Source: Ascidia mentula
Taxonomy: Eukaryota > Chordata > Ascidiacea > Phlebobranchia > Ascidiidae
Assembly (NCBI GenBank): GCA_947561715.1
Contig: OX387197.1
Span: 18,522,266-18,586,265 of the forward strand
Length of the DNA: 64,000 nucleotides
Direction: 5' to 3'
Shown: positions 47,201-50,200 of the stretch, piece after piece
Layout of the letters: each line of letters opens with the position of its first letter
Numbering within the stretch: position 1 is the stretch's first letter
Notes under the pieces: model-generated
Databases searched by the model: none
Told to the model about the DNA's origin: nothing
The model's input: the letters and a program-made list of their open reading frames with translations, nothing else
Program-made: the position numbers and the translations under genes

Positions 47201-50200
47201 TACATATGTTGTTTTCCTACTAAAAACTTAGGACATGACCACAAAGTTTAGTTTCTCCTCAAGACATATTAAAGTGGGTTATCTGAAAAAAACTTTTGCA
47301 CACAGACCATGATTATCACCCCATAAATGTTGTTTAGACTTAAATATAGATAGAGTCCAAGTAACGAATGCTGCAAAATGAGATGTTGCACTTACCTTCA
47401 CACTGTACACCTTGCTTCATTAGACCATAGAGCATCGAGCCACAGTGGTCACAAAATGTGAATTTCATGTAGCTGTGCACTTTGAAGCGATGGGGCATGT
47501 TGATTTTGAAACGTTCCTTCAGATACTGTAATCATGCAATCCAACATTTAGCAAACCGATTGGCCAATATGTTTATGTTTTTGCAATCGAAATTCCACAA
47601 CTATTAATTGCATTTAGCCAATAATTGTACAAATAAACAATAATAACATATCAATATAACAATGCAAATGTACAAGACAGCATTATCCAAGTCAAACAGA
47701 AAAAAACGTAGTAAACATATTGGATCCAATTCATCCAATGTATTTGAACACCCATAAAAAAGCATAAAGCACAATTTACCATTGTGGTGTCAGAACGATG
47801 GGCAGATTTACTGCATGTGCTAAGTATGTGCAGAGTACATTTCTTGTGGAGAGCAATTGCACATTCTGCAGACAGAAACCAATCATGCAAGTAAAGAAAT
47901 ATAAACATAAGCCAGTTTGTTAGTATATACATGACCAGTTAGTTCCACAGTCCAATGTATAGCTTGTCAGTGCTTCTGATACTACACAGAATCAACTGCC
48001 ACAGTCTCTAATTTAGGTATGAAATGGGATAAGTTTAAAATTAACACAAAAACAAGTTTTTAATAGAACCAAATTAACAAGATCCTGTATTACACATGAT
48101 GACTGATTCTGGGAATCACTCCCCATCCCTGACCCATAGTTGCAACGATTTCCACCCATTTTGATTCTTATACACTGGATATGCTTTTGTGCGAAATATA
48201 TTTGACTCACACGAAAGCCAATAGATTTTAACCCATATTTTCCAACAATGCCTGTATACCACAGTTATAATACTATTTAGTAATGATTATAAGGCACTGG
48301 GTTGATCTGAAGTTGTTGGATAACCCAAGTCACCCAGCAATTGGGTAAAAAAGTAATGAATGGACCGTGCACAAATGGTTAACAATATAAAAGTGTGTTT
48401 TGCAGGATTTGGTGGTTGAGATTGAGAGAATAAATCTATGTTAACATGAAGTGTGTGTGTGATGAAATGTGTCATATATTTTTCAGTTCTGTTAGTACGT
48501 AGGGGGTCAGGCAAATTCAGGCATTTTGAAATAAAGCGAACTTAAAACAGTGCCGGGATGCAATTTGATGAAGAATATTTACTAGATTTATGTCGTGATC
48601 GCATCCCACACAAACACCAAGTATTCTTTCCTTGCACCGCTTGTGCATGGCAGCCTGACAAGCTTCGTTAAAAACAACAACAGGTCGATTGTAAACAAAG
48701 TTGTATGTTACATTGCTGATAGACATGTGTTTGCTTAATTAGAGGTGCTATAAGTATGGTTACATAAGTAATTACAAGTAAGTGCTCTTAATGAGTTATC
48801 TAATGTTATTTCTACAGACTTAGACGCTGTTAACATTTGAATTCAATGCCTTACATAAACCCACATAATTATATATATATATAACATTTTGTATCATCTG
48901 TACCCATTTTGTATGATAAACCCTGAAAGTTTAAAGTGGTTATGTATAGTGATGCACCGAAACAGCTATTTTCATATTCGGCCAAAACCGAATATTCGGC
49001 AAAAGTTGCCGAATTAATTCGGCCGAATAAACCGAAACTAATTTTGGTATCCATCTCTTTAAACGCAATAAATTTAAACAACACATATACTGGATTAGAT
49101 CTTATCTATCACACAGCCTTTTTTGGTGCTTGAAGAATAACCTCGTCTTCTGTACCAACTGCTTAAAGTTGATTTTTATCATTTCTGTGAAAGTCAACAA
49201 ATAAAACAAACATATTCGTACAGTTTAAACAATGATTTTGACCTTTTCTAAACTTTGCGTTTCAGCGTTATATGCAATAAAAAATATTTCTACAAAATTC
49301 GGCCAAAACCGAATAATTGTGAAAACCTTAGTTTCGGCCGAATAAATTCGGCAAACCGAACTTTCGGTGCATCCCTAGTTATGTACATGTCTCTAATAAT
49401 TTTACCAAGGCATTGCACTCAGAAAGCGTAAAACCAAGTCACTCAGAATCAGTAATAATCCTACAATAATTTTACTTTTTCAGTTGGTGACTTAAAATGA
49501 AATACATAAATGCAAATTTTAATACCTTTACACTGGTAGCCCTGTTTGTTAATTCCCCACATAAAGTCTTTGCACACAGAACAGAAAGTAGGTTGGTGAA
49601 AAAATCTCGCCGTAAGTTCGTGGCCCTTGACAATGTGAACTTTCGCTTTTTTAATAGCTCCTCTTCTTGCTTGTATGGTGCGCACAGGCAGCTCGTCTTG
49701 TTGCTGTTGAGACAAGTCTGTACAAATCCAATAAAAGTGTGTTTGACTATTTTCCAGAGTTGCACATCAACATTACGTAAAAAAAAACATTTGTTTTCTA
49801 TTCAGAATTCTATGTTGCATTATTGAAAGGAATTATGCTCAGGTTTCACATTTTTCACCATTACACCCGGCATGGATTTACTTTTAAAGCTGGCAGCCGG
49901 TTTGGTATTTCACAGTTTTGGCAGCCACATAATATTGCTTGATATTTAGTGCTTATTACAGTCCATCGCCATCGAGAAAAAAAACATCCACTACAGAAGT
50001 GAGTCAAGTGTTTTCCAGCGGAACTACATAGAGCGACTAGTCAGAATAAATTCATGCAGGCAACTTCCTGTATCAAGCAAATACTTAGTAGCTTTCATGC
50101 TAATGTGTTAAATAGCTTGTAGTTTTGGCGCATTTTGGCATGTTCCCAAGTTTAATTTTCATAGCAGGACACAGCAAACATAACTTCATGGCTGAATTGC

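Follow-up and report, generated by a model that had tools for sequence, protein, structure and literature searches.

Splice isoforms of a PKC that differ in their C1 domains have been published for Pkc53E of Drosophila (PMC10318518), and PMC9741552 lists PRKCB, Pkc53E and pkc-2 among the genes with tandem exon swaps. For the choice between adjacent exons, two published systems come from C. elegans. RBFOX proteins there repress exon 5B of egl-15 through UGCAUG in the upstream intron, and RBFOX helps to choose exon 7a of unc-32 through UGCAUG in intron 7b, which we read as the intron following exon 7b (PMC3585155). Mutually exclusive exons account for 5.8% of splicing events in Ciona robusta, according to PMC10573349. 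Delta and theta are together named the novel-d subfamily of PKC in PMC13142937. Here we describe a gene of this subfamily in Ascidia mentula, in which two exons, a and b, each encode the second half of the first C1 domain (C1A) and are probably used as alternatives to one another.

The window, the whole stretch of 64,000 nucleotides that was analysed, contains the PKC gene on the minus strand (38298..51875). The gene can be read from start to stop, with exon E1 at 51875 and the stop codon ending at 38298. There are 17 coding exon positions, the sixth occupied by either a or b, and the spliced models encode 728 aa with exon b and 726 aa with exon a, in both cases with no internal stop. Pfam domains in the isoform a model were PKC_C2, two C1_1, Pkinase and Pkinase_C, and PKC_C2 of this kind is the domain of delta, epsilon, eta and theta. 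In both isoform models, a pseudosubstrate-like ARRGAIKKA precedes C1A and FRGFSFVNP lies near the C-terminus. The order is that of a novel-d PKC, with PKC_C2 first, followed by the pseudosubstrate, two C1 domains, the kinase and a C-terminal tail with a hydrophobic motif. Among the best 60 of 128 solved-structure rows, the nearest to the kinase domain was PKC theta (498 bits), the next being PKC beta (420 bits), and no delta kinase occurred among these 60. By this comparison the kinase appears closer to delta and theta than to other PKCs. The novel PKC recognized by an earlier sequence-only reading of this DNA may accordingly be narrowed to a novel-d (delta/theta-type) enzyme, by its Pfam domains and its nearest solved kinase. 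A search of the 196-Mb genome with the PKC_C2 profile gave matches at 2 places, both of them exons of this gene; the search also missed E1 of this very gene, and a second such gene may exist. The GH6 domain, which among animals is not known outside tunicates, gave two modest matches in this genome (32.0 and 27.8 bits, cut-off 27).

Other features of the window lie outside the PKC gene. A tandem array at 8834-10876, with a unit of about 333 nt, flips orientation near 10,000, and ORFs recur along it on either strand. On the plus strand, 14291-27483 is occupied by ORFs of a long protein that is rich in Thr/Ser and repeats internally, with stretches (DLVLLVDSTSSI) that we take, from their motif, to be von Willebrand A-like. 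Also on the plus strand, exons at 30714-36547 presumably encode an ABCG-type half transporter and those at 54033-58325 a ubiquitin-specific protease, again judged from their motifs.

The two alternative exons are flanked by shared ones, all on the minus strand. Exon E5 (49526..49717) encodes ARRGAIKKA and the first half of C1A, including the stretches that correspond to the beta12 and beta34 ligand-groove loops, as placed by aligning this stretch to PKC beta. Exon a (48583..48662, 80 nt) encodes the second half of C1A and the linker VGCDHDINL, and exon b (47780..47865, 86 nt) likewise encodes the second half of C1A and a linker. Exon E7 (47396..47525), entered in phase 0, encodes the rest of the C1A-C1B linker and the first half of C1B. 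Both alternative exons are entered in phase 1, since E5 contributes only the first base of its last codon, and the exit phase of each is 0; these positions and phases agree, by gene model and translation, with those given by the sequence-only reading. That reading had also credited each exon with the whole of C-x2-C-x4-H-x2-C-x7-C. Each does encode C-x4-H-x2-C-x7-C, which amounts to four zinc ligands, but the first Cys of C-x2-C comes from shared E5 (...YQC-K).

In spliced translations, the frame remained open with a alone or b alone, and early stops followed when both exons or neither were included, as had been claimed. Exactly one of the two must therefore be spliced in, since either unwanted combination shifts the frame and stops translation early. 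An intron of 717 nt with GT-AG sites separates a from b. Adjacent homologous exons of equal phase, unproductive when doubled or skipped, are what would be expected of a tandem-duplicated, mutually exclusive pair, and a and b appear to have each of these properties.

The C1 identity of the two exons was compared with background by means of a 17-position matrix, built from 17 other C1 second halves of the same genome with a and b left out. The 17 training peptides were hand-picked, with two matches in one region (L028) and six low-complexity window matches excluded as chance; a further region (L035) gave no second-half match for the training set. Across the 55,054 stop-free six-frame words of the window, the C1B half ranked first (29.3), being itself in the training set, followed by a (20.7, rank 2) and b (17.9, rank 3). 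Below these, the highest score in the window was 11.6, and 30 locally shuffled windows reached 14.6 at most; the resemblance of a and b to C1 halves is not due to chance. Against Pfam C1_1, the C1A-C1B stretch scored 77.6 bits with a and 76.2 bits with b (cut-off 26.5). The zinc ligands and the groove residues (P, T, W, G and Q of the loops) are present with either exon, and on these C1A is predicted to be a DAG-sensing C1 domain in both isoforms. In 12 regions chosen from the 43 genome C1 matches, and counted after the two L028 matches had been set aside as chance, no gene was seen with more second-half matches than C1 domains. Several of the 12 are likewise interrupted ahead of C-x4-H, as indicated by match positions.

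What the swap would change in the protein can be approached through published structures. In those of the PKC-delta C1B domain, it is the beta12 and beta34 loops that hold the ligand, and the residues named are Met239, Pro241, Thr242, Phe243, Leu250, Leu251, Trp252, Gly253, Leu254, Val255 and Gln257 (PMC9110374). Their C1A counterparts, HQPTF and FMWGINKQ, are encoded in E5 and are common to both isoforms. The Trp of the toggle position also lies in shared E5. The loop residues were aligned by the conserved Cys, in PKC-delta numbering. In the swapped half are four zinc ligands and their surrounding packing, together with the connection to C1B. The net charge of the C1A core is +3 in a and +1 in b, and the exon-encoded linker contains no Ser/Thr and one Cys in a and five Ser/Thr in b. 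Measured from the last Cys of C1A to the first His of C1B, the C1A-C1B linker is 20 residues with a and 22 with b.

A difference between the isoforms in C1A lipid response had been proposed by the sequence-only reading. This is not favoured, because the DAG groove is formed by the beta12 and beta34 loops, whose C1A counterparts lie in the shared upstream exon (49717-49526). A switch of this kind, in which a and b differ in affinity for diacylglycerol or phorbol ester, would have some basis in the swapped residues: the second half supports the fold and holds its four zinc ligands, and the difference in core charge could change contact with acidic lipid. The authors of the Drosophila Pkc53E study also suppose different affinities for its C1 variants (PMC10318518). 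With all the groove-position counterparts in the shared exon, the toggle Trp among them, and with C1B described as the lipid sensor of the full-length conventional enzyme (PMC10586763), we nevertheless regard tuning of the lipid response as unlikely.

Other work on C1A concerns its contacts with the rest of the enzyme. In the inactive state of conventional PKCs, C1A packs on the kinase and the C-tail, as described for PKC beta structures in PMC13385876, and in a study of C1A mutations autoinhibition was loosened or degradation blocked (PMC10586763). The published clamp residues R42, F43 and Q66 of PKC beta align to the first half of C1A, in shared E5. The second-half hub residue V73 has Ala as its counterpart in a and in b alike. 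On this alignment, the isoforms would have the lipid groove and the named clamp residues in common, and the predicted differences are in the linker, in residues next to the hub and over what remains of the C1A back face. As the clamp residues are common to both isoforms, a reading through autoinhibition is therefore also indirect.

For the functional effect, we infer that the isoforms would share the pseudosubstrate, the C1A ligand groove, C1B, C2 and the kinase, and that the swap may alter the way in which C1A and its linker are positioned relative to the remainder of the enzyme, the docking of partners, or phosphorylation of the linker. Such altered contacts, docking or phosphorylation could in turn change autoinhibition or turnover, rather than the lipid groove. 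We rank them above lipid choice as the likelier consequence.

The age of the pair was estimated from 18 aligned codons, over which a and b are identical at 8/18 residues (counted by hand from the aligned sequences), 26/54 nt and 6/18 third positions. Third-position identity is near what unrelated sequence gives (95% interval 13-59%), and at the upper end of that interval the pair distance would still be 0.61 substitutions per site. When neutral drift was simulated, the four ligands, an open frame and GT/AG were all kept in 0.6-0.9% of copies at 0.3 per site and in about 0.04% at 0.5 per site; indels were ignored, and including them would lower survival. The ligands, frame and splice dinucleotides have been kept despite near-saturated third positions, and both exons have therefore probably been selected since an old duplication. 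Selection on both for most of their separate history is strongly suggested. The view of the sequence-only reading, that a and b are functional and mutually exclusive, thus finds good support in the phases, the frame logic and this retention of ligands, and on their anatomy the two exons are probably just such alternatives.

No similarity between a and b was found above shuffles at the DNA level (of 200 shuffles, 54 attained the upstream score, 110 the downstream score and 122 the exon score), so that it is position and protein motif that point to a duplication. By NG86, dN was 0.60; two other methods gave no value, and dN/dS of the pair could not be computed because dS was undefined. When the animal's own genome was searched for another copy of the exon region, or another haplotype of it, with 40 of 86 candidates scored, at least 47 matches were listed, one being the region itself and 46 being confined to the repeat of the a-b intron. 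This dispersed repeat (48097-48235) has parts that match at least 46 other genome places among the matches listed.

Splice sites were scored with matrices built from the constitutive sites of this gene, which number only 14 donors and 13 acceptors. The acceptor of exon a scored -2.2, the lowest of 15 scored (the lowest constitutive one being -1.9) and 49th of the 79 AG sites in the region, and its donor was weak (2.9, 20th of 129 GT sites). Exon b has a low acceptor (0.0, third lowest of 15 and 36th of 79 AG sites) and a good donor (8.6, 3rd of 129 GT sites). Exon b is better than a mainly through its donor. Weak sites fit regulated exons; for a, they fit a decaying exon too.

A decaying exon a would be a relic, a duplicate no longer spliced in, or included as noise only. 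Its acceptor and donor scores are in keeping with this, as is its linker, which is shorter than that of b and without the Ser/Thr-rich sequence. A relic would not, however, be expected to keep its ligands, frame, phase and splice dinucleotides while third positions approached saturation, and exon a outscores b in the 17-position matrix. That exon a is a relic is on balance rather improbable.

An RBFOX-type hexamer, TGCATG, occurs on the minus strand at 47884..47889, some 20 nt ahead of the exon b acceptor. A second copy on the same strand (47533..47538) is placed just upstream of the E7 acceptor. Both sit within one common 10-mer, TTGCATGATT, which is the longest string common to any of 105 intron-end pairs, the next best being one base shorter. 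Within 40 nt of an acceptor, TGCATG was found only at b and E7 among 15 acceptors (E2-E15, including a and b; the E16 and E17 acceptors were left out of the count). At the window's own rate, the chance of at least 2/15 acceptors with the hexamer is 0.0135, a figure uncorrected for the choice of the motif after seeing the sequence. Both the egl-15-like and the unc-32-like layouts of UGCAUG, as described in PMC3585155, are present at the locus. The second hexamer precedes constitutive E7, and simple repression does not explain it.

For the splicing pattern and its regulator, we infer that exon b would be the default, given its better donor. An RBFOX-type factor at the UGCAUG before b may repress b, with a then being used in some tissues, and nonsense-mediated decay would remove mis-spliced forms carrying both exons or neither. 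It is highly improbable that joint inclusion or skipping is instead a form of dose control, with the proportion of early-stop transcripts setting the PKC level, for although both unwanted combinations do stop early, any exon pair with lengths that are not multiples of three tends to do so, each exon alone is fully coding and there is no specific pointer to regulated unproductive splicing.

Further mechanisms of exclusion were considered. Steric crowding and unusual splice-site classes were set aside, given the GT-AG sites and the 717 nt between a and b. Docking/selector RNA pairing was sought among the three introns, and two of the three intron pairs gave duplexes no more stable than those of shuffles. 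The pair formed by intron E5-a with intron b-E7 gave a duplex of -109.7 against -97.8 +/- 5.8, beyond 15/15 shuffles (best -108.4). This pairing was not relied on, being from one species and with an inverted-repeat element contained in the paired stretch. The element, in the intron before exon a (48939-49385, minus orientation), is short, with 16-bp ends that match at 15/16 positions and an 8-bp target duplication (TACATAAC). We take it to be hAT-like, from the shape of its ends. At least 39 further copies are listed, with 83-92% identity (40 of 502 candidates scored).

Considering the evidence as a whole, we think it reasonably probable, from sequence, that a and b are an old exclusive pair with changed contacts of the C1A back and linker, that b is the default and that the choice is of the RBFOX type. 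As a tentative and rather doubtful possibility, we suggest that an ancient duplication gave isoforms with the same groove and different C1A backs and linkers, and that RBFOX splicing sets autoinhibition, docking or turnover by tissue. At this locus splicing would then switch the regulatory clamp, whereas vertebrates possess two separate genes, delta and theta. Should both isoforms be produced, they would constitute a natural, matched pair of PKCs differing only in the C1A back half and the C1A-C1B linker. Such a pair would test the role of the C1A back half apart from lipid binding, which is a live question, as full-length PKC structures show C1A against the kinase.

The swap in PRKCB resembles the present case in being a tandem exon swap in a PKC gene (PMC9741552). 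It differs in that the alternative beta I and beta II ends of PKC beta change the C-terminal tail and not a C1 domain. FYN and C. elegans egl-15 and unc-32 also have adjacent alternative exons of which one is chosen, and RBFOX sites can decide between them (PMC9741552 and PMC3585155). These are, however, other genes and domains, known from transcript or reporter evidence, whereas a and b are known here from sequence alone. Vertebrate PKC delta and theta are alike in having PKC_C2, two C1 domains and a kinase, that of the present gene being nearest theta among the best 60 of 128 solved-structure rows; they differ in that vertebrates have two genes of the novel-d kind (PMC13142937).

Drosophila Pkc53E is likewise a PKC gene with splice isoforms differing in C1 and, in the descriptions cited at the outset, a listed tandem exon duplication swap; it differs in being a conventional PKC, the present gene being novel-d. 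Translation of its printed primers gave TFCSHC and ALKKKN for the shared forward primers, and EPFTYAG against WQNVTF for the isoform-specific ones. Placed on the fly protein sequence, the primers suggest that the variation affects the beta34 loop region of C1a and the start of C1b, and not the C1A second half; either of these differences may be the listed swap.

The sequence-only reading had known of no PKC described with such a switch. In that breadth the claim gives way to the C1 isoforms of Pkc53E (PMC10318518) and to the listed PKC swaps (PMC9741552). It stands in a narrower form, since a literature search, with supplements and subscription papers outside its scope, found neither a swap affecting the C1A second half nor one in a delta/theta PKC. 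A text find likewise gave no mention of PKC in the main text of a human exclusive-exon survey (PMC5740500) or in PMC3303723 and PMC9013439, which deal with exclusive or duplicated exons. The kind of arrangement is known, and its place, in the second half of C1A, and its subfamily, novel-d, appear to be new. If both isoforms are made, the pair would join fly Pkc53E as a further case in which alternative exons vary PKC C1 domains, an indication that these domains have been subject to such changes repeatedly.
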